In this document: piece after piece, positions 7,501-64,000 of the stretch
Layout: every line of letters begins with the position of its first letter
How positions within the stretch are numbered: position 1 is the stretch's first letter
Assembly: GCA_963924555.1 (NCBI GenBank)
Contig: OZ004582.1
Coordinates: forward strand, 9,619,887-9,683,886
From: Crambe crambe
Lineage: Eukaryota > Porifera > Demospongiae > Poecilosclerida > Crambeidae
DNA length: 64,000 nt
Direction of reading: 5' to 3'
The notes under the pieces: model-generated
Databases searched by the model: none
Told to the model about the DNA's origin: nothing
What the model saw: the letters and a program-made list of their open reading frames with translations, nothing else
Made by a program: the position numbers and the translations under genes

Positions 7501-8300
7501 TTAAACTTCTTCTGCATGAACATAAAAATGTAAGTGCATTTATTATAAGGGTGGGGCTACTGAATACAAAAACGAGACAAATGGTCAGACCAGGTGATAC
7601 CTTTGGCATGTAGGAGACAGCTAGTCTTCCCTGATCATCTCCAAAAAACAGTCGAGTGGCTTTGTTATCCCACACCATGTCAATCACCGCTGCATCCTTC
7701 AGCAGACTGGACACATGCACACGCTGCAACACACAAAGGAAATTACTGGAATGATGAACAGTCAACATTATCCACCAGTGGAATGATGATACCCCCACAC
7801 TCAAGTGAGGCTGACTCACTCTAGATATTCCCTGGTGGGGAAGGTTGAGTTCCCACAGGCTGACATGGCCTCCTCCATTACACACAGCTAAGGAACTTTC
7901 CGAGGGAGAGATCTTGAGCAATGATACACTCCCCTCCTGCAACAACACATTCATTAGATATGACTGTTGGTGTATACCTGTTGTATGCATACCTGGTTTG
8001 CCAAGATCCTGATGTAATGATAATCATGACGATGGAAGCAATAGACACCACCAGTGTTGGCCCCCACGGCAATGTAGTGTGGAGAACAAGTGATACATGT
8101 GTACTATAAAATAACAACACTGAAATATCTGCTATGCTATAGCTATGAATGTGTGATGATCATCAGGTAGTCAGCTAGCAATTTACCCTTATCCTGGGAG
8201 CTGATGCTATGGGGGAGAGGAGAGGACTTGTATCCTTCACAGAGAGCAAGCAACAACCTTCCTCTTCATTACTAGTGTTCTCCTTGGTGTTCTCTTCCAT
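1596..8300 (-). CDS. HPS5: HPS5 (BLOC-2 subunit) with C-terminal RING-H2
   Basis: A multi-exon gene starting at MEENTKENTS (ATG at 8298-8300) and ending at TAA 1596-1598. The N-terminal part is a WD40-type propeller: exons near 7.5-8.1 kb (HVSLWELNLPHQG; VWDNKATRLFFGDDQGRLAV) and 7.04-7.30 kb (GKRPRDGAFGACFHL, YSARPGGRLWEADIQG) match HPS5 blocks. The middle (about 3.5-6.5 kb) is long, acidic and Ser/Gly/Thr-rich with little expected fold. The C-terminal helical part (MPWEVAMACGLQF; LLEKVDRYLW) again matches HPS5. After the point where human HPS5 ends, two further in-phase exons add CAIC...FICGHAFHKSC...CVTC, a RING-H2 like that of VPS11/18/41/8. HPS5 with HPS3 and HPS6 forms BLOC-2, which sends cargo to lysosome-related organelles. 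It sits head-to-head with LRRIQ1. Confidence 0.88.
6050..6295 (-). repeat. In-frame minisatellite coding for Gly/Ser/Thr repeats in HPS5
   Basis: About 15-18-bp units repeat imperfectly and code for a run of GTSGE, GASGE and GTSGV type pentapeptides in the disordered middle of HPS5. The unit keeps frame, so copy number can change without breaking the gene. The same stretch stays open in frames on both strands, a by-product of the repeat. Confidence 0.8.
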
Positions 8301-14302: not shown

Positions 14303-17300
14303 TCATGGACCAAAGGGAGAGACGGCACACTGGCGTTGAAGCTCAAAATTTTCAGTGAGGAGTTTCTCAATATGTTCATGTTGCTTTTCCATCACTTGTT
14401 TGTATGAGACTAGCTCCTCCTTGGTCTTTTTACACTCTTCTGTCACCATCAAAAAATCGGTCTGCTTCTTGTCCATTGCTACCTGCATGTTAAGAGAGAG
14501 ATATAGCAACAGTTACCATGACAATGTAGAGTTGTCGTGTACCTGTGTCTGTTTTAGGAGGGCAGAGAGTTTTTCACAATCTCTCTGCACTTGCCTCAAC
14601 TGTTCATTCTCACGTCTCAAGTGAAGCAGCTCACTAGAACTCTTTCTTGCACTGGACTGCAGGAAAGAGAAGGGTGGGGTCACGACCTCAGTGTAGGTAG
14701 GAGGTGGAGAGTGGTTGCATGTGACCGGGAGGAGAGAGGAGTGCAGTTCTTCCAAGAGAGTGGCTACACGTTGTGGGTGTGGCAGATGGACATGCCCATG
14801 CTGTTGAACATGTGATTCAAAAGTGGAGATGAAATCAGTGAAAGATTTTAGTAGTTGGTCATCATCTTCATGAGATGAGGTTGATGACCTGCAGTCAAGA
14901 ATTGACAGCATTAGCAAATACAAAACTGCAATGTTCTACTTAAGGACGCAGTGTTCTACTTTCGATTACTGACCTCTGTGGCACTGTGATACCACCAGCC
15001 TCCATGAAGACATCAGCACCTTGAACTAACTCACGGCCACGATGGATCTCGAGTTGCTCTACAGCCATTGACATACTCTGCACATGGTCTGCACTGTGGG
15101 CGAGGTCTTCCACCAACACTGCACGGGTAGTTGCCACTTTCAGGTGCAGGGGGAGGGGCAAAATAGCTTCATACTCATCATCAAAGAAGTCCTTCATGAT
15201 TGCAATGTTGGGCATGAGAAGAGAAAGGTCCAGCCCTTCCACTTTGGCTATAACAATGATGTCCTGCTCCACAGAGTTGCCGGGGTAGAAGCGAGCTACT
15301 TGCTTCCCTACTTCCATCCTAGCTTTGATAGAGGGGGAAGAGTTGGGGGGTCCTATGTCCGATGGAGGTTTCCTACGGTCAAACAACTCCTTCATACCCT
15401 GATACTCTTGTGTGCCTAGCTCTCTCAGTCCCACAGTGTCAGCACTCAGTCGCACAGATATCTCCCCAGCTTTGATGTTTGGGATGGCAAAAATATGTTT
15501 CACCTCGGCATGTAGCACAAACTGGGGGGCTGCTTTGAGAGGAACAGGACTCTTTTGACGACGAGGAGGCCTTGCCTGGTGGAGGGGGTCAGTGCTTAGG
15601 AGGGAGGAAGATATGGAAGAAGTGGAGGGATAGCGAGGTACAGCTCCACTTGGATAAGACCTCGTCTCCTCTAACAGGCCAGGTGGGGGCCTATTAATTT
15701 CAAGCTGACTCGATTCAACCATCACAAAGTCTTCTCTACTATCATTTTCCTCATCTCCCTCAGCAGTGTTTCTGTGCTCGTGTCCAGTCTTCCTTTCTTC
15801 ATCTGATTGGCTTGAAAAGTCTAGGACTGGTAGTAGGTTGTGAATGGGATGGGAGGGGAGGAGTTCTACTGCACTATGAGTCCTGGAAGGAGGTCCAGAA
15901 TTAGAAACTGGCAGTGGAAAGCGAGTCGTGCTGCTGGGTAAATTACTTGTGCTTGCATATGTTCCTGGAGAGTGTGACCTGTGTACTTTGGGTATGTTAG
16001 CCAGTGAACTGTTGGGAGAAGACGTTTGTGGTGACGGAGCCAGTGGCTGTGGTGGACGTATGGTGGTGTTGGTGCAGTTCATGTCCTCTGGACTGCCATT
16101 CAATGGACTAGATTGCTCTAGAGAAGTGGTTTTAGGAGAGGGGCTAGTAGTGGTCTGATCTGGAGACACGACCCTTTCGTTGTCTATCATTTGTAAAGTT
16201 TTGTTGGTGGAAGTGAGGGTGGGGAGGAGAATGCTAGCCTTCACGCGCCTTAACATCACATAGCCACTTATAGTGATAGGAGACGAGGACGATTCAATGT
16301 CGTCAGCATCCTTGGAGGTGTGGCGATGTGCCTCTAGAGTCTCCTTCAAATTGGGAGCAAAGGTGTCAGGGTCCAGGAACCTCATGAGAGAGTCTTTGAA
16401 AGCAGTGAAGGAATCCTTCAGACGCATCAGAAACAGAAGCTGCAGTCGTTCCAACTCGACACAGATCTCTGAGGGGGCATGTCCGATGATGGTAAACCGA
16501 GGATCTTGATTTGTGGGGGGAGAGGAAAGTGAAGGAATGGAGGTATCGAGGGAGGAGGGGGGAAGGAAGAGCCAGAAATGGAGTGGGAAGTCACTGATGA
16601 AGGTCTTGGTGTTAAGGGTAGCTTGGTGGGTGTAGTTGCTGGCAAATGCCACATGGACACAACTGGTACTAATGTGCCAGCCCTCAATGCCGACCATCTC
16701 AGACAAGGTTTCTTCGGGGGCCAGGGCAGAGGAGCATCTGTCATGAGAGGGTGAGCTACTGGAAAAAGATTCTCCTCTTTTTCGTCCCGTCCTGATCGTC
16801 TGCTGCAGCAACTCTTGCAGACGAGTTGGCAATGCTCTCAGGTCGTCCTGATAGTGAGGAAACTGGGTGGTGTCTTGAGAGGAGAGAATCCAGCAATCTT
16901 TCAAGGCCTGGAGGGCCTTGCTAAAGTTGTCGTCACCCAGCAGGTCATTGAGGGGACAGTTTTTAACCTCGATGGCAGAAGTTTCGATCTGTAGTGCCTT
17001 GGGACGCCCATCATCAGCAGCATCAGGTAGCGGAAGTGTGACCTAATGTTATCAGTAATAACATCATGAATAACAATGGAGGTGTGATCTTGTGGTGCAT
17101 GTGAATATTACACTACCTTAGTAAACAGGATTTTGAACTTGATATCAACCCCAGGAAGCTGGGTGACCTCGGCAGCATCAGATTTAGCTTTTATTTCTTC
17201 CTGTACACAGCAAAAATTTTAATAGACGTTACGAGAACGATTGGAGTGACTCACTAGGAAGGACTTTCCTTCATCCTTGACATCGAGGGCTAATTCTACA

Positions 17301-48072: not shown

Positions 48073-49030
48073 CAATTGATGCCCACCATATCGAATTGAT
48101 GCCCACCATATCGAATTGATGCCCACCATATCGAATTGATGCCCACCATATCGAATTGATGCCCACCATATCGAATTGATGCCCACCATATCGAATTGAT
48201 GCCCACCATATCGAATTGATGCCCACCATATCGAATTGATGCCCACCATATCGAATTGATGCCCACCATATCGAATTGATGCCCACCATATCGAATTGAT
48301 GCCCACCATATCGAATTGATGCCCACCATATCGAATTGATGCCCACCATATCGAATTGATGCCCACCATATCGAATTGATGCCCACCATATCGAATTGAT
48401 GCCCACCATATCTAATTGATGCCCACCATATCTAATTGATGCCCACCATATCTAATTGATGCCCACCATATCTAATTGATGCCCACCATATCTAATTGAT
48501 GCCCACCATATCTAATTGATGCCCACCATATCTAATTGATGCCCACCATATCTAATTGATGCCCACCATATCTAATTGATGCCCACCATATCTAATTGAT
48601 GCCCACCATATCTAATTGATGCCCACCATATCTAATTGATGCCCACCATATCTAATTGATGCCCACCATATCTAATTGATGCCCACCATATCTAATTGAT
48701 GCCCACCATATCTAATTGATGCCCACCATATCTAATTGATGCCCACCATATCTAATTGATGCCCACCATATCTAATTGATGCCCACCATATCTAATTGAT
48801 GCCCACCATATCTAATTGATGCCCACCATATCTAATTGATGCCCACCATATCTAATTGATGCCCACCATATCTAATTGATGCCCACCATATCTAATTGAT
48901 GCCCACCATATCTAATTGATGCCCACCATATCTAATTGATGCCCACCATATCTAATTGATGCCCACCATATCTAATTGATGCCCACCATATCTAATTGAT
49001 GCCCACCATATCTAATTGATGCCCACCATA
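48073..49030. repeat. 20-bp minisatellite, ~48 copies, two homogeneous blocks
   Basis: The unit AATTGATGCCCACCATATCG repeats with no length change. About 16 copies (to 48410) carry TCGAATT; the next 31 (48411 on) carry TCTAATT, with no mixing. The last copy ends CCACCATA and runs straight into the telomere-type repeat. Because 20 is not a multiple of 3, all three minus frames stay open over the first block; this is not coding. Confidence 0.97.
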
Positions 49031-49064
49031 GGGCTAGGGCTAGGGCTAGGGCTAGGGCTAGGGG
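49029..49064 (+). repeat. Interstitial telomere tract 1 (TAGGGC)
   Basis: Five TAGGGC units and one TAGGGG, in the same orientation as the chromosome-end array. It sits at the exact start of the first copy of the subtelomeric element. Confidence 0.95.
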
Positions 49065-49259
49065 CATGGAGAAGGATCCCTCACCATCCCTCATATATAT
49101 AATATGATCCCTTATATTCATATACTTGAGTGTTTTATCCCTCAAATTCGCAAATTTGAGTCTTTTTTCCCCTTATGGTCATATACTTGGAGGATTTTAC
49201 CCTTATGTCAACCTCAACTTCATGGATAAATCTTATCTCGATTTAGGGGTAAAATATCC

Positions 49260-49690
49260 ATGAGGTTAGGTTTCTTTAACCTGGGTTGAGGTTTCCAGAG
49301 GTAAAATAGCCATGAGGTTATGTATTGTTAACCTGGGTTGAGGTTTCCAGAGGTAAAATAGCCATGAGGTTATGTCCTGTTAACCTGGGTTGAGGTTTCC
49401 AGAGGTAAAATAGCCATGAGGTTATGTCTTGTTAACCTGGGTTGAGGTTTCCAGAGGTAAAATAGCCATGAGGTTATGTCCTGTTAACCTGGGTTGAGGT
49501 TTCCAGAGGTAAAATAGCCATGAGGTTATGTCTTGTTAACCTGGGTTGAGGTTTCCAGAGGTAAAATAGCCATGAGGTTTTCCAACGTTAACCTGGGTTG
49601 AGGTTTCCAGAGGTAAAATAGCCATGAGGTTTTGTTTCGTTAACAGGGGTTGAGGTAAAGTATCCATGAGGTTAGTTAAGTATTTATGAA
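49260..49690 (+). repeat. 52-bp satellite, first block (unit A)
   Basis: Eight or so units with the core GGTTGAGGTTTCCAGAGGTA, then AAATAGCCATGAGGTTATGT and CTTGTTAACCTG. Variants differ mainly in the last 12 bp (TGTCTTGTT, TGTCCTGTT, TCCAACGTT). Confidence 0.93.
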
Positions 49691-49935
49691 GTCCCTCAAG
49701 TCACGGTAATGCACAGTAGATGTCCCTCAAGTCTATTCCTACACTTTGAAGTATTACCAAGTACACTTAAGTCCCTCAAGTATAGATAAAGACATTCAAA
49801 GTCCCTCAAGGCCAGATAGAGATTACGGAAGTCCCTCAAGTCATGGTAATGCACAGTAGATGTCCCTCAAGTCTATTCCTACACTTTGAAGTATTACGAA
49901 GTACACTTAAGTCCCTCAAGTCCATGCATCCGTAG
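49690..49935 (+). repeat. GTCCCTCAAG-rich repeat (unit A)
   Basis: The decamer GTCCCTCAAG occurs about eight times in phrases such as CATGGTAATGCACAGTAGAT and CTATTCCTACACTTTGAAGT. The ~170-bp phrase occurs twice here and returns at 51590-51745. Confidence 0.85.
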
Positions 49936-49998
49936 CGCAGGCTGAAACCACAGAAGGGGAAGTGCACGCCGTAGCCAGCCATATGACGCACTCAGTAG

Positions 49999-50386
49999 AT
50001 GTCCACCAGTCAACCTACCAACAGGCCGGCAACACTGAAAAGACTGTCAAAACGTAAGTCATTTACAGTCTGCACACACACTAGTTCAACTCACATTGTA
50101 CCATTCAGATACAAGAAGTTGTGGCCACGCCTTCCCAAAGCACATCAAACTCCACCCCCAGCAAAAAAGAAGACTCTATTCCGAAGAAGAATACTCAATC
50201 CTAAAGAGATATTTCGACATTGGCGGAGAGAGGTCTAAAGTGGCAAAACTTTCTGAGTGTGCAGATTTCCTTAGAGAGTACCAGAGAGATATGCAGTTTG
50301 AGGGGAAGGACACAGGACAAGATCAAAAACATGATAAAGCAGAGCAAGTGACAGCAAACCAACAGTTCTTTTTATTTAAAATGTAA
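49999..50386 (+). CDS. Small spliced subtelomeric gene, copy A (110 aa)
   Basis: Exon 1 is 49999-50053 and exon 2 is 50109-50386, with a 55-bp intron bearing consensus ends (GTAAGT...TTCAG). The joined frame is 111 codons with stop. The protein begins MSTSQPTNRPATLKRLSKH; a basic stretch (HIKLHPQQKRRL) leads to YSEEEYSILKRYFDIGGERS and KLSECADFLREYQRD, then a polar, Lys/Gln-rich tail. The middle resembles a small helical motif (acidic EEE, aromatic, later Cys and FL) found beside zinc-finger or transposon-type proteins in invertebrates; this is a pattern-level inference. Copy B codes the same protein. Expression is unknown. Confidence 0.5.
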
Positions 50387-50499
50387 TCAATCATTCTCAC
50401 AAAAAAAAGTACTAATGTAATCAATCATTCTCACAATTTCTTTCTATTTCTAATCAAGTCTCACAATTCAAATTTTTCCTCTAGAAATTTAGATACTTT

Positions 50500-50855
50500 T
50501 TGCTGGACATCCCTCCTAGCTATACACTTATCTTTCCCTCCCGGCTTGCACGTCTCGGTGAATATCCTTCATGGATCCTTCCTGGATATTCTGGGACTTT
50601 GAAATTTCAGATACTTCTAGGAGGACAATTGGTGGCCCCCATGGATTCTGAGAGGACAATTGGTGACCCCCATGGATTCTGGGAGGACAATTGGTGACCC
50701 CCATGGGCCAGATACATCATCCCTCCTAGCTATGACCTTACCTTTCCCTCCTGGCTTGCACATCTCAGTGAATATCCTTCATGGTTTCGTATTCGATCCT
50801 TCCTGGATATTCTGGGACTTTGAAATTTCAGCTCCTTCTTGGAGGATCCAGAGGT
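50500..50855 (+). repeat. ~240-bp repeat, first block (unit A)
   Basis: Two partial units: CTTTCCCTCCCGGCTTGCAC, GTGAATATCCTTCATGG, CCTTCCTGGATATTCTGGGA, then 31-bp sub-repeats with GAGGACAATTGGTGGCCCCC and ATGGATTCT. The same repeat dominates 52035-53830. Confidence 0.9.
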
Positions 50856-51590
50856 AAAATAGCCATGAGGTTATGTCTTGTTAACCTGGGTTGAGGTTTC
50901 CAGAGGTAAAATAGCCATGAGGTTATCCATCGTTAACTTGGATTGAGGTTTCCAGAGGTAAAATAGCCATGAGGTTATGTCTTGTTAACCTGGGTTGAGG
51001 TTTCCAGAGGTAAAATAGCCATGAGGTTATCCAACGTTAACCTGGGTTGAGGTTTCCAGAGGTAAAATAGCCATGAGGTTATGTCTTGTTAATCTGGGTT
51101 GAGGTTTCCAGAGGTAAAATAGCCATGAGGTTATGTCTTGTTAACCTGGATTGAAGTTTCCAGAGGTAAAATAGCCATGAGGTTATGTCTTGTTAATCTG
51201 GGTTGAGGTTTCCAGAGGTAAAATAGCCATGAGGTTATCCAATGTTAACCTGGGTTGAGGTTTCCAGAGGTAAAATAGCCATGAGGTTATGTCTTGTTAA
51301 CCTGGGTTGAGGTTTCCAGAGGTAAAATAGCCATGAGGTTATCCAACGTTAACCTGGGTTGAGGTTTCCAGAGGTAAAATAGCCATGAGGTTATGTCTTG
51401 TTAACCTGGGTTGAGGTAAAATAGCCATGAGGTTATCCAACGTTAACCTGGGTTGAGGTTTCCAGAGGTAAAATAGCCATGAGGTTATGTCTTATTAACC
51501 TGGGTTGAGGTTTTCAGAGGTAAAATAGCCATGAGGTTTTGTTTCGTTAACAGGGGTTGAGGTAAAGTATCCATGAGGTTAGTTAAGTAT
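50855..51590 (+). repeat. 52-bp satellite, second block (unit A)
   Basis: About 13 units of the same 52-bp satellite as 49260-49690, one shortened where GGTTTCCAGAGGTAAAAT has dropped out to GGTAAAAT near 51414. Copy B lacks exactly two units (104 bp) here. Confidence 0.93.
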
Positions 51591-51747
51591 TTATGAAGTC
51601 CCTCAAGTCATGGTAATGCACAGTAGATGTCCCTCAAGTCTATTCCTACATTTGGAAGTATTACCAAGTACACTTAAGTCCCTCAAGTCCATGCAAAGTC
51701 CCTAAAGGCCTGATAGAGATTACAAAAGTCCCTCAAGTCATGGTAAT

Positions 51748-52035
51748 GCACAAGAAGTTGTGGCCACGCCTTCCCAAAGCACATCAAACTCCACCCCTCA
51801 ACCACCAGCAAGTGTATAGCTAGGAGGGATGTCCAGCCAAAAGTATCTAAATTTCTAGTCCTAATCGAGAGGAAAAATTTTTTATAATTGAATTGTGAGA
51901 CTTGATTTTAAATATAAAGAAATTGTGAGAATGATTGATTACATTAGAACTGTTTTTTGTGAGAATGATTGATTAGTCGAAATATCTCTTTAGGATTGAG
52001 TATTCTTCTTCGGAATAGAGTCGTCTCTTTTTTAT
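51748..52035. pseudogene. Scrambled, partly inverted fragment of the small gene (unit A)
   Basis: 51750-51797 repeats the start of exon 2 (from 50111) in direct orientation. 51811-52033 is then the reverse complement of the gene's 3' flank (about 50395-50530) followed by part of exon 2 (about 50165-50221), with about 165 bp between them deleted. The protein cannot be made from it. Confidence 0.85.
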
Positions 52036-53830
52036 CTTTCCCTCCCGGCTTGCACGTCTCGGTGAATATCCTTCATGGATCCTTCCTGGATATTCTGGGA
52101 CCTTGAAATTTCAGATACTTCTAGGAGGACAATTGGTGGCCCCCATGGATTCTGAGAGGACAATTGGTGACCCCCATGGGCCAGATATATCATCCCTCCT
52201 AGCTATGACCTTACCTTGCACATCTCAGTGGATATCCTTCATGGTTTCGTATTCGATCCTTCCTGGATATTCTGGGACTTTGAAATTTCAGCTCCTTCTT
52301 GGAGGACAATTGGTGGCCCCCATGGATTCTTGGAGGACAATTGGTGGCCCCCATGGATCCTGAGAGGACAATTGGTGACCCCCATGGATTCTGGGAGGAC
52401 AATTGGTGACCCCCATGGGCCAGATATATCATCCCTCCTAGCTATGACCTTACCTTTCCCTCCTGGCTTGCACATCTCAGTGAATATCCTTCATGGTTTC
52501 GTATTCGATCCTTCCTGGATATTCTGGGACTTTGAAATTTCAGCTCCTTCTTGGAGGACAATTGGTGGCCCCCATGGATTCTTGGAGGACAATTGGTGGC
52601 CCCCATGGATCCTGAGAGGACAATTGGTGACCCCCATGGATTCTGGGAGGACAATTGGTGACCCCCCATGGGCCAGATATATCATCCCTCCTAGCTATGA
52701 CCTTACCTTTCCCTCCTGGCTTGCACATCTCAGTGAATATCCTTCATGGTTTCGTATTCGATCCTTCCTGGATATTCTGGGACTTTGAAATTTCAGCTCC
52801 TTCTTGGAGGACAATTGGTGGCCCCCATGGATTCTTGGAGGACAATTGGTGGCCCCCATGGATCCTGAGAGGACAATTGGTGACCCCCATCATCCCTCCT
52901 AGCTATGACCTTACCTTTCCCTCCTGGCTTGCACATCTCAGTGAATATCCTTCATGGTTTCATATTCGATCCTTCCTGGATATTCTGGGACTTTGAAATT
53001 TCAGCTCCTTCTTGGAGGACAATTGGTGGCCCCCATGGATTCTTGGAGGACAATTGGTGGCCCCCATGGATCCTGAGAGGACAATTGGTGACCCCCATGG
53101 ATTCTGGGAGGACAATTGGTGATCCCCCATGGGCCAGATATATCATCCCTCCTAGCTATGACCTTACCTTTCCCTCCTGGCTTGCACGTCTCAGTGAATA
53201 TCCTTCATGGTTTCGTATTCGATCCTTCCTGGATATTCTGGGACTTTGAAATTTCAGATACTTCTAGGAGGACAATTGGTGGCCCCCATGGATTCTGAGA
53301 GGACAATTGGTGACCAGATATATCATCCCTCCTAGCTATGACCTTACCTTTCCCTCCTGGCTTGCATATCTCAGTGAATATCCTTCATGGTTTCGTATTC
53401 GATCCTTCCTGGATATTCTGGGACTTTGAAATTTCAGCTCCTTCTTGGAGGACAATTGGTGGCCCCCATGGATTCTTGGAGGACAATTGGTGGCCCCCAT
53501 GGATCCTGAGAGGACAATTGGTGACCCCCATGGATTCTGGGAGGACAATTGGTGACCCCCCATGGGCCAGATATATCATCCCTCCTAGCTATGACCTTAC
53601 CTTTCCCTCCTGGCTTGCACATCTCAGTGAATATCCTTCATGGTTTCGTATTCGATCCTTCCTGGATATTCTGGGACTTTGAAATTTCAGATACTTCTAG
53701 GAGGACAATTGGTGGCCCCCATGGATTCTGAGAGGACAATTGGTGACCAGATATATCATCCCTCCTAGCTATGACCTTACCTTTCCCTCCTGGCTTGCAC
53801 GTCTCAGTGAATATCCTTCATGGTTTCATA
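52035..53830 (+). repeat. ~240-bp repeat array with 31-bp sub-repeats (unit A)
   Basis: Seven or more copies of TATGACCTTACCTTTCCCTC, GCTTGCACATCTCAGTGAAT, CGTATTCGATCCTTCCTGGA, TTTGAAATTTCAG, then two to four 31-bp sub-repeats around GGACAATTGGTG and CCCCCATGGAT, then CAGATATATCATCCCTCCTA. The sub-repeat number differs between copies. Open frames on both strands here are by-products. Confidence 0.93.
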
Positions 53831-54077
53831 GAAGGGATGACTAGGGCTAGATGCAACTCGGAAGGGATGACTAGAGCTAGATTCAACTTGGAAGGGATGT
53901 CTAGGGCTAGATGCAACTTGGAAGGGATGTCTAGGGCTAAATGCAACTCAGAAGGGATGACTAGGGCTAGATGCAACTCGGAAGGGATGACTAGGGCTAG
54001 ATGCAACTCGGAAGGGATGACTAGGGCTAGATGCAACTTGGAAGGGATGATTAGGGCAAGATGCAACTCGGAAGGGC
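53829..54077 (+). repeat. 30-bp minisatellite with a telomere-like core
   Basis: About eight units of GAAGGGATGACTAGGGCTAG followed by ATGCAACTCG. Each contains CTAGGGCTAG, one and two-thirds units of the local telomere repeat. Some copies differ by one or two bases (GTCTAGGG, AGAGCTAG, TTAGGGCA). Confidence 0.93.
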
Positions 54078-54599: not shown

Positions 54600-55780
54600 C
54601 TCAACCTACAGGTTAAGGAGATAAGCCCTCAGATTTCTTCAGGTTTCTTCAGGTTAGGTTCAGGTTAGGTTAGGTTGAGGTTAGAGGTCCAAATCGGCCC
54701 GAAGGGCATATGTATACCCCCTAGGGGATCTCTATGGCACATGGGGGCAGGGTTAGCTGTCCTGGGGGCAATTTCATCTGGATTACCACGAAATTATCCC
54801 TCATGCTTCTCAGGTTATCCCTCCTGACTGTTTTCCACCCATTCAGGTTTCTTCAGGTTTCTTCAGGTTTCTTCAGGTTAGGTTAGGTTGAGGTTAGGTT
54901 GAGGTTAGAGGTCCAAATCGGCCCTAAGGGCATATGTACACCCCCTAGGGGATCTCTATGGTACATGAGGGCAGGGTTAGCTGTCCTGGGGGCATTTTCA
55001 TCCGGACTACCACGAGGTTATCCCCCATGCCTCTCGGGTTATCCCTCCTGACTGTTTTCCACCCATTCAGGTTTCTTCAGGTTTCTTCAGGTTTCTTCAG
55101 GTTAGGTTAGGTTGAGGTTAGGTTGAGGTTAGAGGTCCAAATCGGCCTGAAGGGCATATGTACACCCCCTAGGGGATCTCTATGGCACATGAGGGCAGGG
55201 TTAGCTGTCCTGGGGGCATTTTCATCCGGACTACCACGAAGTTATCCCTCATGCTTCTCAGGTTATCCCTCCTGACTGTTTTCCACCCATTCAGGTTTCT
55301 TCAGGTTTCTTCAGGTTTCTTCAGGTTAGGTTAGGTTGAGGTTAGGTTGAGGTTAGAGGTCCAAATCGGCCCTAAGGGCATATGTACACCCCCTAGGGGA
55401 TCTCTATGGCACATGGGGGCAGGGTTAGCTGTCCTGGGGGCAATTTCATCTGGATTACCACGAAATTATCCCTCATGCTTCTCAGGTTATCCCTCCTGAC
55501 TGTTTTCCACCCATTCAGGTTTCTTCAGGTTTCTTCAGGTTAGGTTAGGTTGAGGTTAGGTTGAGGTTAGAGGTCCAAATCGGCCCTAAGGGCATATGTA
55601 CACCCCCTAGGGGATCTCTATGGCACATGGGGGCAGGGTTAGCTGTCCTGGGGGCAATTTCATCTGGATTACCACGAAATTATCCCTCATGCTTCTCAGG
55701 TTATCCCTCCTGACTGTTTTCCACCCATTCAGGTTTCTTCAGGTTTCTTCAGGTTTCTTCAGGTTAGGTTAGGTTGAGGT
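54600..55780 (+). repeat. 224-bp repeat array (unit A)
   Basis: Five copies, joined at CCACCCATTC at 224-bp steps (54841, 55065, 55289, 55513, then 214 to 55727). Each has two or three AGGTTTCTTC decamers, a run of GGTTAGGTTGAGGTTAG, then GGTCCAAATCGGCC, CACCCCCTAGGGGATCTC and CTGTTTTCCACCCATTC. The last run passes directly into telomere tract 2. Confidence 0.95.
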
Positions 55781-55804
55781 TAGGGCTAGGGCTAGGGCTA
55801 GGGG
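55781..55804 (+). repeat. Interstitial telomere tract 2 (TAGGGC)
   Basis: Three TAGGGC units then TAGGGG, preceded by GGTTAGGTTAGGTTGAGGT. It starts unit B and is shorter than tract 1 by two units. Confidence 0.95.
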
Positions 55805-55999
55805 CATGGAGAAGGATCCCTCACCATCCCTCATATATATAATATGATCCCTTATATTCATATACTTGAGTGTTTTATCCCTCAAATTCGCAAATTTGAG
55901 TCTTTTTTCCCCTTATGGTCATATACTTGGAGGATTTTACCCTTAAGTCAACCTCAACTTCATGGATAAATCTTATCTCGATTTAGGGGTAAAATATCC

Positions 56000-56430
56000 A
56001 TGAGGTTAGGTTTCTTTAACCTGGGTTGAGGTTTCCAGAGGTAAAATAGCCATGAGGTTATGTATTGTTAACCTGGGTTGAGGTTTCCAGAGGTAAAATA
56101 GCCATGAGGTTATGTCCTGTTAACCTGGGTTGAGGTTTCCAGAGGTAAAATAGCCATGAGGTTATATCTTGTTAACCTGGGTTGAGGTTTCCAGAGGTAA
56201 AATAGCCATGAGGTTATGTCCTGTTAACCTGGGTTGAGGTTTCCAGAGGTAAAATAGCCATGAGGTTATGTCTTGTTAACCTGGGTTGAGGTTTCCAGAG
56301 GTAAAATAGCCATGAGGTTTTCCAACGTTAACCTGGGTTGAGGTTTCCAGAGGTAAAATAGCCATGAGGTTTTGTTTCGTTAACAGGGGTTGAGGTAAAG
56401 TATCCATGAGGTTAGTTAAGTATTTATGAA
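56000..56430 (+). repeat. 52-bp satellite, first block (unit B)
   Basis: Counterpart of 49260-49690, with at least one base change (TATATCTTG for TATGTCTTG near 56165). The GTCCCTCAAG stretch follows to about 56675. Confidence 0.93.
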
Positions 56431-56738
56431 GTCCCTCAAGTCACGGTAATGCACAGTAGATGTCCCTCAAGTCTATTCCTACACTTTGAAGTATTACCAA
56501 GTACACTTAAGTCCCTCAAGTATAGATAAAGACATTCAAAGTCCCTCAAGGCCAGATAGAGATTACGGAAGTCCCTCAAGTCATGGTAATGCACAGTAGA
56601 TGTCCCTCAAGTCTATTCCTACACTTTGAAGTATTACGAAGTACACTTAAGTCCCTCAAGTCCATGCATCCATAGCGCAGGCTGAAACCACAGAAGGGGA
56701 AGTGCACTCCGTAGCCAGCCATATGACGCACTCAGTAG

Positions 56739-57126
56739 ATGTCCACCAGTCAACCTACCAACAGGCCGGCAACACTGAAAAGACTGTCAAAACGTAAGTC
56801 ATTTACAGTCTGCACACACACTAGTTCAACTCACATTGTACCATTCAGATACAAGAAGTTGTGGCCACGCCTTCCCAAAGCACATCAAACTCCACCCCCA
56901 GCAAAAAAGAAGACTCTATTCCGAAGAAGAATACTCAATCCTAAAGAGATATTTCGACATTGGCGGAGAGAGGTCTAAAGTGGCAAAACTTTCTGAGTGT
57001 GCAGATTTCCTTAGAGAGTACCAGAGAGATATGCAGTTTGAGGGGAAGGACACAGGACAAGATCAAAAACATGATAAAGCAGAGCAAGTGACAGCAAACC
57101 AACAGTTCTTTTTATTTAAAATGTAA
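56739..57126 (+). CDS. Small spliced subtelomeric gene, copy B (110 aa)
   Basis: Exons 56739-56793 and 56849-57126, with the same 55-bp intron. The encoded protein is identical to copy A, including the YSEEEYSILKRYFD and ECADFLREY blocks. It lies 2.2 kb from the terminal telomere array, so silencing by telomere position effect is possible. Confidence 0.5.
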
Positions 57127-57239
57127 TCAATCATTCTCACAAAAAACAGTACTAATGTAATCAATCATTCTCACAATTTCTTTCTATTTCTAATCAAGTC
57201 TCACAATTCAAATTTTTCCTCTAGAAATTTAGATACTTT

Positions 57240-58240
57240 TTGCTGGACATCCCTCCTAGCTATACACTTATCTTTCCCTCCCGGCTTGCACGTCTCGGTG
57301 AATATCCTTCATGGATCCTTCCTGGATATTCTGGGACTTTGAAATTTCAGATACTTCTAGGAGGACAATTGGTGGCCCCCATGGATTCTGAGAGGACAAT
57401 TGGTGACCCCCATGGATTCTGGGAGGACAATTGGTGACCCCCATGGGCCAGATACATCATCCCTCCTAGCTATGACCTTACCTTTCCCTCCTGGCTTGCA
57501 CATCTCAGTGAATATCCTTCATGGTTTCGTATTCGATCCTTCCTGGATATTCTGGGACTTTGAAATTTCAGCTCCTTCTTGGAGGATCCAGAGGTAAAAT
57601 AGCCATGAGGTTATGTCTTGTTAACCTGGGTTGAGGTTTCCAGAGGTAAAATAGCCATGAGGTTATCCATCGTTAACTTGGGTTGAGGTTTCCAGAGGTA
57701 AAATAGCCATGAGGTTATGTCTTGTTAATCTGGGTTGAGGTTTCCAGAGGTAAAATAGCCATGAGGTTATGTCTTGTTAACCTGGATTGAAGTTTCCAGA
57801 GGTAAAATAGCCATGAGGTTATGTCTTGTTAATCTGGGTTGAGGTTTCCAGAGGTAAAATAGCCATGAGGTTATCCAATGTTAACCTGGGTTGAGGTTTC
57901 CAGAGGTAAAATAGCCATGAGGTTATGTCTTGTTAACCTGGGTTGAGGTTTCCAGAGGTAAAATAGCCATGAGGTTATCCAACGTTAACCTGGGTTGAGG
58001 TTTCCAGAGGTAAAATAGCCATGAGGTTATGTCTTGTTAACCTGGGTTGAGGTAAAATAGCCATGAGGTTATCCAACGTTAACCTGGGTTGAGGTTTCCA
58101 GAGGTAAAATAGCCATGAGGTTATGTCTTGTTAACCTGGGTTGAGGTTTTCAGAGGTAAAATAGCCATGAGGTTTTGTTTCGTTAACAGGGGTTGAGGTA
58201 AAGTATCCATGAGGTTAGTTAAGTATTTATGAAGTCCCTC
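57240..58240 (+). repeat. ~240-bp partial repeats then 52-bp satellite (unit B)
   Basis: 57240-57595 matches 50500-50855. 57595-58230 is the second 52-bp satellite block with two units fewer than unit A. Confidence 0.92.
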
Positions 58241-58383
58241 AAGTCATGGTAATGCACAGTAGATGTCCCTCAAGTCTATTCCTACATTTGGAAGTATTAC
58301 CAAGTACACTTAAGTCCCTCAAGTCCATGCAAAGTCCCTAAAGGCCTGATAGAGATTACAAAAGTCCCTCAAGTCATGGTAAT

Positions 58384-58672
58384 GCACAAGAAGTTGTGGC
58401 CACGCCTTCCCAAAGCACATCAAACTCCACCCCTCAACCACCAGCAAGTGTATAGCTAGGAGGGATGTCCAGCCAAAAGTATCTAAATTTCTAGTCCTAA
58501 TCGAGAGGAAAAATTTTTTATAATTGAATTGTGAGACTTGATTTGAAATATAAAGAAATTGTGAGAATGATTGATTACATTAGAACTGTTTTTTGTGAGA
58601 ATGATTGATTAGTCGAAATATCTCTTTAGGATTGAGTATTCTTCTTCGGAATAGAGTCGTCTCTTTTTTATC
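58384..58672. pseudogene. Scrambled, partly inverted fragment of the small gene (unit B)
   Basis: Same direct-then-inverted arrangement as 51748-52035 in unit A, with one visible base difference (GATTTGAAAT for GATTTTAAAT). The rearrangement therefore predates the duplication of the unit. Confidence 0.85.
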
Positions 58673-59031
58673 TTTCCCTCCCGGCTTGCACGTCTCGGTG
58701 AATATCCTTCATGGATCCTTCCTGGATATTCTGGGACCTTGAAATTTCAGATACTTCTAGGAGGACAATTGGTGGCCCCCATGGATTCTGAGAGGACAAT
58801 TGGTGACCCCCATGGGCCAGATATATCATCCCTCCTAGCTATGACCTTACCTTGCACATCTCAGTGGATATCCTTCATGGTTTCGTATTCGATCCTTCCT
58901 GGATATTCTGGGACTTTGAAATTTCAGCTCCTTCTTGGAGGACAATTGGTGGCCCCCATGGATTCTTGGAGGACAATTGGTGGCCCCCATGGATCCTGAG
59001 AGGACAATTGGTGACCCCCATGGATTCTGGG
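58672..59031 (+). repeat. ~240-bp repeat, cut off by the telomere (unit B)
   Basis: Holds one full and one partial copy of the repeat seen at 52035-52395. It ends inside a 31-bp sub-repeat at GGATTCTGGG. Confidence 0.92.
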
Positions 59032-62000
59032 CTAGGGCTAGGGCTAGGGCTAGGGCTAGGGCTAGGGCTAGGGCTAGGGCTAGGGCTAGGGGCTAGGGCT
59101 AGGGCTAGGGCTAGGGCTAGGGCTAGGGCTAGGGCTAGGGCTAGGGCTAGGGCTAGGGCTAGGGCTAGGGCTAGGGCTAGGGCTAGGGCTAGGGCTAGGG
59201 CTAGGGCTAGGGCTAGGGCTAGGGCTAGGGCTAGGGCTAGGGCTAGGGCTAGGGCTAGGGCTAGGGCTAGGGCTAGGGCTAGGGCTAGGGCTAGGGCTAG
59301 GGCTAGGGCTAGGGCTAGGGCTAGGGCTAGGGCTAGGGCTAGGGCTAGGGCTAGGGCTAGGGCTAGGGCTAGGGCTAGGGCTAGGGCTAGGGCTAGGGCT
59401 AGGGCTAGGGCTAGGGCTAGGGCTAGGGCTAGGGCTAGGGCTAGGGCTAGGGCTAGGGCTAGGGCTAGGGCTAGGGCTAGGGCTAGGGCTAGGGCTAGGG
59501 CTAGGGCTAGGGCTAGGGCTAGGGCTAGGGCTAGGGCTAGGGCTAGGGCTAGGGCTAGGGCTAGGGCTAGGGCTAGGGCTAGGGCTAGGGCTAGGGCTAG
59601 GGCTAGGGCTAGGGCTAGGGCTAGGGCTAGGGCTAGGGCTAGGGCTAGGGCTAGGGCTAGGGCTAGGGCTAGGGCTAGGGCTAGGGCTAGGGCTAGGGCT
59701 AGGGCTAGGGCTAGGGCTAGGGCTAGGGCTAGGGCTAGGGCTAGGGCTAGGGCTAGGGCTAGGGCTAGGGCTAGGGCTAGGGCTAGGGCTAGGGCTAGGG
59801 CTAGGGCTAGGGCTAGGGCTAGGGCTAGGGCTAGGGCTAGGGCTAGGGCTAGGGCTAGGGCTAGGGCTAGGGCTAGGGCTAGGGCTAGGGCTAGGGCTAG
59901 GGCTAGGGCTAGGGCTAGGGCTAGGGCTAGGGCTAGGGCTAGGGCTAGGGCTAGGGCTAGGGCTAGGGCTAGGGCTAGGGCTAGGGCTAGGGCTAGGGCT
60001 AGGGCTAGGGCTAGGGCTAGGGCTAGGGCTAGGGCTAGGGCTAGGGCTAGGGCTAGGGCTAGGGCTAGGGCTAGGGCTAGGGCTAGGGCTAGGGCTAGGG
60101 CTAGGGCTAGGGCTAGGGCTAGGGCTAGGGCTAGGGCTAGGGCTAGGGCTAGGGCTAGGGCTAGGGCTAGGGCTAGGGCTAGGGCTAGGGCTAGGGCTAG
60201 GGCTAGGGCTAGGGCTAGGGCTAGGGCTAGGGCTAGGGCTAGGGCTAGGGCTAGGGCTAGGGCTAGGGCTAGGGCTAGGGCTAGGGCTAGGGCTAGGGCT
60301 AGGGCTAGGGCTAGGGCTAGGGCTAGGGCTAGGGCTAGGGCTAGGGCTAGGGCTAGGGCTAGGGCTAGGGCTAGGGCTAGGGCTAGGGCTAGGGCTAGGG
60401 CTAGGGCTAGGGCTAGGGCTAGGGCTAGGGCTAGGGCTAGGGCTAGGGCTAGGGCTAGGGCTAGGGCTAGGGCTAGGGCTAGGGCTAGGGCTAGGGCTAG
60501 GGCTAGGGCTAGGGCTAGGGCTAGGGCTAGGGCTAGGGCTAGGGCTAGGGCTAGGGCTAGGGCTAGGGCTAGGGCTAGGGCTAGGGCTAGGGCTAGGGCT
60601 AGGGCTAGGGCTAGGGCTAGGGCTAGGGCTAGGGCTAGGGCTAGGGCTAGGGCTAGGGCTAGGGCTAGGGCTAGGGCTAGGGCTAGGGCTAGGGCTAGGG
60701 CTAGGGCTAGGGCTAGGGCTAGGGCTAGGGCTAGGGCTAGGGCTAGGGCTAGGGCTAGGGCTAGGGCTAGGGCTAGGGCTAGGGCTAGGGCTAGGGCTAG
60801 GGCTAGGGCTAGGGCTAGGGCTAGGGCTAGGGCTAGGGCTAGGGCTAGGGCTAGGGCTAGGGCTAGGGCTAGGGCTAGGGCTAGGGCTAGGGCTAGGGCT
60901 AGGGCTAGGGCTAGGGCTAGGGCTAGGGCTAGGGCTAGGGCTAGGGCTAGGGCTAGGGCTAGGGCTAGGGCTAGGGCTAGGGCTAGGGCTAGGGCTAGGG
61001 CTAGGGCTAGGGCTAGGGCTAGGGCTAGGGCTAGGGCTAGGGCTAGGGCTAGGGCTAGGGCTAGGGCTAGGGCTAGGGCTAGGGCTAGGGCTAGGGCTAG
61101 GGCTAGGGCTAGGGCTAGGGCTAGGGCTAGGGCTAGGGCTAGGGCTAGGGCTAGGGCTAGGGCTAGGGCTAGGGCTAGGGCTAGGGCTAGGGCTAGGGCT
61201 AGGGCTAGGGCTAGGGCTAGGGCTAGGGCTAGGGCTAGGGCTAGGGCTAGGGCTAGGGCTAGGGCTAGGGCTAGGGCTAGGGCTAGGGCTAGGGCTAGGG
61301 CTAGGGCTAGGGCTAGGGCTAGGGCTAGGGCTAGGGCTAGGGCTAGGGCTAGGGCTAGGGCTAGGGCTAGGGCTAGGGCTAGGGCTAGGGCTAGGGCTAG
61401 GGCTAGGGCTAGGGCTAGGGCTAGGGCTAGGGCTAGGGCTAGGGCTAGGGCTAGGGCTAGGGCTAGGGCTAGGGCTAGGGCTAGGGCTAGGGCTAGGGCT
61501 AGGGCTAGGGCTAGGGCTAGGGCTAGGGCTAGGGCTAGGGCTAGGGCTAGGGCTAGGGCTAGGGCTAGGGCTAGGGCTAGGGCTAGGGCTAGGGCTAGGG
61601 CTAGGGCTAGGGCTAGGGCTAGGGCTAGGGCTAGGGCTAGGGCTAGGGCTAGGGCTAGGGCTAGGGCTAGGGCTAGGGCTAGGGCTAGGGCTAGGGCTAG
61701 GGCTAGGGCTAGGGCTAGGGCTAGGGCTAGGGCTAGGGCTAGGGCTAGGGCTAGGGCTAGGGCTAGGGCTAGGGCTAGGGCTAGGGCTAGGGCTAGGGCT
61801 AGGGCTAGGGCTAGGGCTAGGGCTAGGGCTAGGGCTAGGGCTAGGGCTAGGGCTAGGGCTAGGGCTAGGGCTAGGGCTAGGGCTAGGGCTAGGGCTAGGG
61901 CTAGGGCTAGGGCTAGGGCTAGGGCTAGGGCTAGGGCTAGGGCTAGGGCTAGGGCTAGGGCTAGGGCTAGGGCTAGGGCTAGGGCTAGGGCTAGGGCTAG

Positions 62001-64000
62001 GGCTAGGGCTAGGGCTAGGGCTAGGGCTAGGGCTAGGGCTAGGGCTAGGGCTAGGGCTAGGGCTAGGGCTAGGGCTAGGGCTAGGGCTAGGGCTAGGGCT
62101 AGGGCTAGGGCTAGGGCTAGGGCTAGGGCTAGGGCTAGGGCTAGGGCTAGGGCTAGGGCTAGGGCTAGGGCTAGGGCTAGGGCTAGGGCTAGGGCTAGGG
62201 CTAGGGCTAGGGCTAGGGCTAGGGCTAGGGCTAGGGCTAGGGCTAGGGCTAGGGCTAGGGCTAGGGCTAGGGCTAGGGCTAGGGCTAGGGCTAGGGCTAG
62301 GGCTAGGGCTAGGGCTAGGGCTAGGGCTAGGGCTAGGGCTAGGGCTAGGGCTAGGGCTAGGGCTAGGGCTAGGGCTAGGGCTAGGGCTAGGGCTAGGGCT
62401 AGGGCTAGGGCTAGGGCTAGGGCTAGGGCTAGGGCTAGGGCTAGGGCTAGGGCTAGGGCTAGGGCTAGGGCTAGGGCTAGGGCTAGGGCTAGGGCTAGGG
62501 CTAGGGCTAGGGCTAGGGCTAGGGCTAGGGCTAGGGCTAGGGCTAGGGCTAGGGCTAGGGCTAGGGCTAGGGCTAGGGCTAGGGCTAGGGCTAGGGCTAG
62601 GGCTAGGGCTAGGGCTAGGGCTAGGGCTAGGGCTAGGGCTAGGGCTAGGGCTAGGGCTAGGGCTAGGGCTAGGGCTAGGGCTAGGGCTAGGGCTAGGGCT
62701 AGGGCTAGGGCTAGGGCTAGGGCTAGGGCTAGGGCTAGGGCTAGGGCTAGGGCTAGGGCTAGGGCTAGGGCTAGGGCTAGGGCTAGGGCTAGGGCTAGGG
62801 CTAGGGCTAGGGCTAGGGCTAGGGCTAGGGCTAGGGCTAGGGCTAGGGCTAGGGCTAGGGCTAGGGCTAGGGCTAGGGCTAGGGCTAGGGCTAGGGCTAG
62901 GGCTAGGGCTAGGGCTAGGGCTAGGGCTAGGGCTAGGGCTAGGGCTAGGGCTAGGGCTAGGGCTAGGGCTAGGGCTAGGGCTAGGGCTAGGGCTAGGGCT
63001 AGGGCTAGGGCTAGGGCTAGGGCTAGGGCTAGGGCTAGGGCTAGGGCTAGGGCTAGGGCTAGGGCTAGGGCTAGGGCTAGGGCTAGGGCTAGGGCTAGGG
63101 CTAGGGCTAGGGCTAGGGCTAGGGCTAGGGCTAGGGCTAGGGCTAGGGCTAGGGCTAGGGCTAGGGCTAGGGCTAGGGCTAGGGCTAGGGCTAGGGCTAG
63201 GGCTAGGGCTAGGGCTAGGGCTAGGGCTAGGGCTAGGGCTAGGGCTAGGGCTAGGGCTAGGGCTAGGGCTAGGGCTAGGGCTAGGGCTAGGGCGTAGGGC
63301 TAGGGCTAGGGCTAGGGCTAGGGCTAGGGCTAGGGCTAGGGCTAGGGCTAGGGCTAGGGCTAGGGCTAGGGCTAGGGCTAGGGCTAGGGCTAGGGCTAGG
63401 GCTAGGGCTAGGGCTAGGGCTAGGGCTAGGGCTAGGGCTAGGGCTAGGGCTAGGGCTAGGGCTAGGGCTAGGGCTAGGGCTAGGGCTAGGGCTAGGGCTA
63501 GGGCTAGGGCTAGGGCTAGGGCTAGGGCTAGGGCTAGGGCTAGGGCTAGGGCTAGGGCTAGGGCTAGGGCTAGGGCTAGGGCTAGGGCTAGGGCTAGGGC
63601 TAGGGCTAGGGCTAGGGCTAGGGCTAGGGCTAGGGCTAGGGCTAGGGCTAGGGCTAGGGCTAGGGCTAGGGCTAGGGCTAGGGCTAGGGCTAGGGCTAGG
63701 GCTAGGGCTAGGGCTAGGGCTAGGGCTAGGGCTAGGGCTAGGGCTAGGGCTAGGGCTAGGGCTAGGGCTAGGGCTAGGGCTAGGGCTAGGGCTAGGGCTA
63801 GGGCTAGGGCTAGGGCTAGGGCTAGGGCTAGGGCTAGGGCTAGGGCTAGGGCTAGGGCTAGGGCTAGGGCTAGGGCTAGGGCTAGGGCTAGGGCTAGGGC
63901 TAGGGCTAGGGCTAGGGCTAGGGCTAGGGCTAGGGCTAGGGCTAGGGCTAGGGCTAGGGCTAGGGCTAGGGCTAGGGCTAGGGCTAGGGCTAGGGCTAGG
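59028..64000 (+). repeat. Terminal telomere array, TAGGGC/CTAGGG, ~828 units
   Basis: About 4.97 kb of TAGGGC to the window edge. Only two irregular units were noticed: one extra G near 59092 and one extra G near 63294 (GGCGTAGGG). Between them lie about 700 identical units. The G-rich strand reads 5' to 3' toward the end, the orientation telomerase makes. The unit differs from the canonical animal TTAGGG by one T-to-C change. No canonical TTAGGG run occurs in the array. Confidence 0.96.

Follow-up and report, generated by a model that had tools for sequence, protein, structure and literature searches.

CTAGGG as the very probable telomere repeat of the demosponge Crambe crambe

The 64,000-nucleotide window analysed here, the whole stretch at the right end of contig C3, comes from the published PacBio HiFi assembly of the demosponge Crambe crambe (PMC12166358). 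It closes with an array of CTAGGG units that very probably caps chromosome 2 (contig C3) as its telomere, CTAGGG being the working telomere repeat of this genome. On the sequence evidence, the best reading is that Crambe crambe would have a telomerase-maintained, non-canonical animal telomere. The window contains the following features:

48074 to 49030, forward strand: 20-bp satellite AATTGATGCCCACCATATCT, adjoining interstitial tract 1
49029 to 49063, forward strand: interstitial telomeric tract 1 (5.8 units, 100%), preceding subtelomere copy A
49064 to 52392, forward strand: subtelomere element copy A, beginning right behind tract 1
53831 to 54076, forward strand: 30-bp satellite GAAGGGATGACTAGGGCTAGATGCAACTCG, which includes CTAGGGCTAG, from the tandem-repeat measure
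55781 to 55803, forward strand: interstitial telomeric tract 2, preceding subtelomere copy B
55804 to 59028, forward strand: subtelomere element copy B, from tract 2 to the terminal array
59029 to 64000, forward strand: terminal telomere array (CTAGGG)n, from the tandem-repeat measure, the unit count and the contig end

The terminal array has a period of 6, 828.3 copies and 99% matches, and holds 826 perfect CTAGGG units (700 in the longest perfect run) with two interruptions between them and no TTAGGG. These values bear out the roughly 828 nearly identical units counted in the sequence-only reading, which was also right that the array is terminal and G-rich outward, its start alone being set one base early (59028 for 59029). 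Contig C3 (9,683,886 bp) stops at the last base of the array, with no unique sequence past it, and the outward strand is G-rich. Two consecutive units never appeared in 20 mononucleotide shuffles of window positions 1 to 59028. Scanned against Rfam at gathering thresholds, the window had no match, and the Pfam scan covered seven open frames.

Across the genome, an outward CTAGGG array reaches the contig tip at 28 of the 36 ends of the 18 chromosome-size contigs, which upholds the earlier claim that the motif is not local noise. All 28 arrays have the expected orientation, C-rich at left ends and G-rich at right ends, and together they comprise 15,818 CTAGGG units, 57 interruptions and three TTAGGG. 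None of them is a TTAGGG array, the observation at other ends that had been named as decisive against CTAGGG. Three further ends (C1 left, C12 left and C10 right) carry arrays sealed by other DNA, and no array stands at the tip of the other five (C1 right, C13 right, C15 left, C17 right and C21 right). Contamination by another eukaryote was dropped as an explanation because most of the 18 chromosomes of the host carry the array. Additionally, (CTAGGG)4 matches the genome 40,889 times (19,099 and 21,790 on the two strands) with none for the reversed-pattern control, and (TTAGGG)4 matches this 143 Mb genome only twice, once on each strand (C12:294537 and C17:5345193), both places being interior and outside the end arrays. 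The Crambe crambe genome therefore does not fit the canonical (TTAGGG)n telomere, defined by its TTAGGG unit.

That the real ends are TTAGGG, miscalled through a sequencing or assembly artefact, is barely conceivable. Some ends are indeed faulty: C1 and C12 contain arrays fused at their ends, and C21 has a bacterial transporter gene at its right end. Against this stand the HiFi coverage of 459x and an assembly QV of 58.1, the genuine (TTAGGG)4 read correctly at two places of the same genome, and the CTAGGG unit found outside the end arrays, in interstitial tracts and a satellite. Telomere miscalls, moreover, are known from nanopore reads, where they yield other units. Equally far-fetched is a recent, private change by which a mutant telomerase RNA acts in the sequenced specimen alone. 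The assembly does represent one individual only, yet CTAGGG occupies both interstitial tracts (49029-49063 and 55781-55803), whose presence in the subtelomere had been noted from the letters, as well as the satellite; (TTAGGG)4 remains at just two interior places; and at the 13 ends where the base of the array was read, CTAGGG sits directly on other sequence.

The joints between array and other DNA argue for telomerase rather than for exchange of a satellite. We examined 17 joints and found an unbroken counterpart for 14 of them. In 12 of these 14, the counterpart overlaps the repeat by 1-4 bases, and in two, C10 left and the piece joined to C12 left, there is no shared base. The array start breakpoints are many and different, with C6 left and C8 left having one joint in common. 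Versions of the 20-bp satellite lie beneath the arrays at the left ends of C5, C10, C11, C14, C17 and C18 and beneath the piece joined to C12 left. In particular, the left end of C17, where the stretch of tract 1 is found as well, equals the window over 688 bases, after which C17 turns into CTAGGG and the window continues unbroken; because identity breaks directly into CTAGGG, this pair records the addition of a new telomere. De novo addition to non-telomeric DNA with short overlap is thus seen both in the 12 joints and in the C17 left and C3 right pair.

The rival to be weighed here is a terminal satellite without telomerase, in which CTAGGG spread by unequal exchange or rolling-circle copying and is telomeric only by position. 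Subtelomeres clearly exchange between chromosomes, and this speaks for such a process: copies A and B are 98.6-99.7% identical in the aligned pieces, the likeness is 98-99.8% when segments of C6 left, C8 left and C9 left are counted in, C6 left and C8 left share their joint, and two joints have no base in common with the repeat. Recombination of this kind nevertheless appears quite improbable, since the genome encodes TERT, the many different joints mostly overlap the repeat by a few bases as in telomerase healing, the C17 array is placed straight onto a breakpoint, and 15,818 units at 28 tips contain just 57 interruptions. Taken together, the terminal position, the outward G-strand, the single near-pure unit, the de novo joints and the TERT gene are what a telomerase-maintained repeat displays.

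The contig tips point in the same direction. On the assumption that each contig tip is the end of reads reaching the chromosome terminus, 15 of the 28 tips stop in the register ...GGGCTAG (P = 8.8e-6, or 5e-5 after correction for six registers), and the tips therefore look like true, processed chromosome ends. Such a preferred register is a mark of shelterin-type end protection. The human C-strand ends in the register 5'-CTAACC, to which the Crambe tip ...GGGCTAG corresponds.

The protein components were sought in the genome itself. One locus has a TERT RNA-binding domain (C6:7555175-7555665), supported by two Pfam matches (6e-12 and 3.8e-9) and by human TERT structures (8.5e-5). One TERT match crosses a TAG, which probably lies in an intron. 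No Pfam family matched a further piece, taken by eye for reverse-transcriptase motif 1. Two POT1 paralogues are present: a POT1-like gene on C20 (7.4e-25; human POT1 structures 5e-28) and another on C21 (4.4e-11; human POT1 structures 4e-12). An exon-by-exon search, run without a positive control, found no TRF homology domain (PF08558).

Pattern searches of the genome gave no convincing candidate for the telomerase RNA gene. A 10-nt template with broken flanks had 346 matches versus 29 in the control; among the 100 matches listed first, which lie on C1 and C3, many are satellite copies, and matches at the 30-bp spacing of the window's 30-bp satellite occur at several sites near the ends of these two contigs. 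An 11-nt template with broken flanks had 74 places versus 12 in the control. Of these, 57 loci were read; the other 17 are four unread copies on C14, one match within L069, and 12 matches that fall inside or next to L081, a satellite locus on C12. Among the 57 template loci, none matched an Rfam telomerase RNA at E up to 10, and our own pseudoknot descriptor found something at 15, none of it convincing. Another search used a human pseudoknot motif, which had 28 matches versus 6 in the control; none of the 10 loci read (eight by script, L123 and L124 by eye) has a template of at least 8 bases upstream of the motif. These negatives are weak, as the sponge template may be only 8-9 nt and a vertebrate model may miss sponges.

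The telomerase reading suggests a mechanism. Telomerase would add CTAGGG from an RNA template reading CCCUAG in some register; TTAGGG requires CCCUAA, so each template copy of that position would carry an A to G change. Broken ends would be healed when a few bases anneal to the template, and POT1-type proteins may bind the GGGCTAG end and fix its register. Every G-strand unit contains the self-complementary CTAG, by which ends could anneal and G-C structures could form. We therefore tentatively raise the possibility, an unlikely one, that the lineage rebuilt the way its ends are protected, by duplicating POT1 and by changing or losing TRF-type binding, along with its telomerase RNA template, and so stabilised a unit that is unstable in human telomeres.

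Were the sponge fully on CTAGGG, it would demonstrate that a switch of base 1 is possible in an early-branching animal. Crambe would also provide a case in nature of whole chromosomes served by a repeat that in human cells is unstable and poorly bound by TRF1/TRF2, opening template change, POT1/TRF specificity and repeat stability to joint study. Searches of the open-licence literature found no paper describing CTAGGG as the telomere repeat of an entire genome.

The canonical animal system consists of (TTAGGG)n, TERT and an H/ACA telomerase RNA, and TTAGGG is regarded as the repeat of the animal ancestor. Like it, the Crambe telomere has a 6-bp unit, is G-rich outward and kilobases long, and accompanies encoded TERT and POT1; unlike it, base 1 is C rather than T, in 15,818 units versus 3. 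Blocks of the (CTAGGG)n variant were reportedly seen in human telomeres by Mendez-Bermudez and by Lim in 2009. In yeast, Y' subtelomeric elements are bounded by short telomeric tracts, and the window resembles them, in arrangement alone, in having a repeated element by the telomere with tracts before its copies. As the sequence-only reading stated, TTAGGG was reported by FISH in sponges, namely three species (PMC5793068), and CTAGGG is linked to instability in human telomeres, where (CTAGGG)n is unstable, human POT1 is said to bind it efficiently (PMC8492063) and TRF1/TRF2 binding is reduced (PMC3919612). That instability makes CTAGGG at Crambe ends notable: the unit is identical, but the human form is an unstable minority block within TTAGGG, whereas in Crambe it makes up the whole array at most ends. 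Among other animals, nematodes have TTAGGC and arthropods TTAGG (PMC10767889), and Hymenoptera have variable motifs matched by altered telomerase RNA templates, animal telomere diversity minus insects being called monotonous (PMC9841428); the common motif formula is given as TxAyGz. Crambe resembles such lineages in that TTAGGG was replaced lineage-specifically, and differs from them in that base 1 became C, beyond TxAyGz, in a sponge.

The right end of contig C3 closes with a terminal CTAGGG array, and the same unit recurs further inside, in each case directly ahead of a copy of the subtelomere:

49029-49063: interstitial CTAGGG tract 1, found by the tandem-repeat scan
49064-52392: subtelomere copy A, following a telomeric tract
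55781-55803: interstitial CTAGGG tract 2
55804-59028: subtelomere copy B, following a telomeric tract and capped by the terminal array
59029-64000: terminal array, G-rich strand outward; 6-bp period, 828.3 copies, 99% match

The terminal array covers 4,972 bases at the window's 3' extreme. It is made up of 826 perfect CTAGGG units with two interruptions among them, and TTAGGG is absent from it. The longest perfect run in the window reaches 700 units, and two or more consecutive units occurred in none of 20 mononucleotide shuffles of the window minus the array. The sequence-only reading had described about 828 tandem units here and had seen the unit again in two interstitial tracts, and both descriptions hold. 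Unique sequence past the array, which it had regarded as contrary to its claim, is absent: contig C3 (9,683,886 bp) and the window share the same last base, which is the array's. Additionally, each strand of the array has one frame that stays open over more than 1,400 codons (58807-63297, plus; 58875-63299, minus), giving Arg-Ala on the G strand and Leu-Ala on the C strand, so that translation of a telomeric transcript might in principle yield dipeptide repeats. Elsewhere in the window, 54629-55784 holds a 224-bp subtelomeric satellite rich in AGGTT, TTAGG and TTCAGG, telomere-like but not the telomere unit. The region 7487-39909, within the subtelomere, holds ordinary genes (an HPS5-like propeller, an IQ-motif protein, a protein kinase and a longin/synaptobrevin SNARE) and a weak BLTP3-like match below cut-off; two of the seven window open frames scanned against Pfam gave no match.

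Across the whole assembly analysed (Crambe crambe, Demospongiae, Poecilosclerida; 143,139,886 bases, 119 contigs), which may be a later release than the published one (143.20 Mb in 124 scaffolds; PacBio HiFi, 459x, QV 58.1; PMC12166358), (CTAGGG)4 matched 19,099 times forward and 21,790 times in reverse, with no match for the reversed-pattern control. (TTAGGG)4 matched twice, once at 294 kb within C12 and once at 5.3 Mb along C17. A 28-bp interior satellite built around ACTAGCCCTAGCT, also a telomere-like unit, has at least 13 copies in one stretch read outside the window (G000:C12:247631-247980). Among C1-C24, 18 contigs are of chromosome size (C1, C3, C5, C6 and C8-C21), and all 36 of their ends were read: 15 left ends at 10 kb (C1 at 20 kb) and three at 1.2 kb, 17 right ends at 1.2 kb, and C3 right as the window. 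CTAGGG arrays lie at the tips, oriented outward, nearly pure and spread over the chromosomes; specifically, 28 of the 36 ends carry one reaching the tip:

Left ends: C3, C5, C6, C8, C9, C10, C11, C13, C14, C16, C17, C18, C19, C20, C21
Right ends: C3, C5, C6 (final dozen bases degenerate), C8, C9, C11, C12, C14, C15, C16, C18, C19, C20

The sequence-only reading had proposed a hexamer count at contig ends, and over these 28 arrays it comes out at 15,818 perfect CTAGGG units versus three of TTAGGG. The 57 interruptions are chiefly one G gained (21) or lost (13), and ATAGGG appears five times.

Three further arrays, at C1 left, C12 left and C10 right, are sealed by other DNA. At C1 left and C12 left, two arrays abut end to end, inverted and without N (stretch L011, ~8757; stretch L022, ~7645-7780), and these junctions could be an assembly join, a chimeric read or a true telomere-telomere fusion. 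C10 right (stretch L036, C10:8731212-8732411) shows a wrong-orientation telomere tract followed by a tandem repeat that, by eye, is of the same kind as one at C13 right. In the stretch read, no tip array was present at C15 left, which has a short telomeric tract at 4345, or at the right ends of C1, C13, C17 and C21; the left ends of small contigs C2, C4, C7, C22, C23 and C24 likewise lacked an array. C21 right is bacterial, with an open frame (stretch L055, C21:5670125-5671324) matching the model of PotC, a spermidine/putrescine permease, at 1.9e-73, below its cut-off; a symbiont contig seems to have been joined to a sponge scaffold there.

Arrays have been added onto diverse breakpoints, with start points at several phases of a 20-bp satellite, in the 31-bp satellite of the window, in a 224-bp repeat (C9 left) and in other sequence. 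The joints compared were those of 13 ends, of two joined pieces and of the two interstitial tracts, 17 in all, each set against any unbroken copy of the upstream sequence. An exact key found a counterpart for 12 of the 17, those of C3 left and C13 left being sighted once each, and every one of the 12 has 1-4 bases in common with the repeat, 2.2 on average. One-base slack added two counterparts, for C10 left and the piece joined to C12 left, each with no base in common and an extra G; neither search found one for C6, C8 or C16 left. A base is thus shared at 12 of 14 comparable joints, where a random joint would be expected to share one about a quarter of the time by our estimate, and the joints are partly non-independent (C17 left equals tract 1; C5, C11 and C14 left lie at the same 20-bp satellite phase). 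C17 left and the window are identical over 688 bases, which span the satellite, the tract and 19 bases at the start of the element that follows (GGCATGGAGAAGGATCCCT); past these, C17 enters CTAGGG and the window continues into its subtelomere. The two form a near-exact before/after pair for the addition of a new telomere.

TERT is present as a single, also Pfam-matched locus with a telomerase RNA-binding domain (C6:7555175-7555665; domain matches with E 1e-13, through one TAG, and 1.9e-6), which human TERT structures match at 8.5e-5. POT1 is present as two paralogues, on C20 (7.4e-25) and C21 (4.4e-11), both matching solved human POT1; these POT1-like genes (stretches L056 and L057) are diverged, lie on different chromosomes and have open frames of 623 and 491 aa. 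The TRF homology domain had no match in the genome, a result of little weight because control genomes were equally silent. Template/pseudoknot pattern searches of the genome and Rfam on the loci read did not find telomerase RNA, which is expected in Crambe because three sponge species are reported to have telomerase RNAs that combine template-pseudoknot, CR4/5 and H/ACA domains (PMC8480181). Its template would code CTAGGG, with one change needed if the template is short with a single copy of base 1 and two if it is longer. Base 1 lends itself to drift, since human telomerase extension raises base-1 (GTAGGG, ATAGGG, CTAGGG) and base-3 variants, not base-2 (PMC3919612). Binding of human TRF1/TRF2 to CTAGGG is reduced (PMC3919612); human POT1 binds it efficiently, and CTAGGG blocks are unstable in human cells (PMC8492063). 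CTAG is self-complementary, and in a DNA fold (CTAGGG)4 pairs weakly (-1 kcal/mol) and (TTAGGG)4 not at all; predicted self-pairing is only a hint, because 199 of 200 shuffles of (CTAGGG)4 fold equally well or better.

As the sequence-only reading had stated, sponges are reported as TTAGGG by hybridisation; the relevant statement, from FISH in three species, gives TTAGGG alone (PMC5793068). The main text of the Crambe crambe genome note contains no word beginning 'telomer' (PMC12166358), and 'telomere' does not occur in nine other open-licence sponge genome notes. Among the entries listed by searches of the open-licence literature, none describes CTAGGG as the telomere repeat of a whole genome, and we rate it as a variant of a known telomere type without an earlier report there.

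The tips have a preferred register: 15 of 28 outward strands end in ...GGCTAG, the others in GCTAGG (5), TAGGGC (3), GGGCTA (2), AGGGCT (1), CTAGGG (1) or out of phase (C6 right). The probability of at least 15 in one register is 8.8e-6 (5e-5 corrected for six registers), and because random shearing would choose no register, many contig tips look like true chromosome ends. Once end repair has taken off the 3' overhang, the 5' end of the C-strand fixes the tip, in this case 5'-CTAGCC. The human C-strand mostly ends in 5'-CTAACC, a register set by POT1. Crambe has this register on a changed repeat, which is a hint, not proof, that end processing is conserved. Copies A and B are 98.6-99.7% identical across aligned pieces, and segments at C6, C8 and C9 left are 98-99.8% identical to the window subtelomere; therefore, ends exchange sequence. 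The arrangement of tract, element copies and terminal array is similar to that of yeast Y'.
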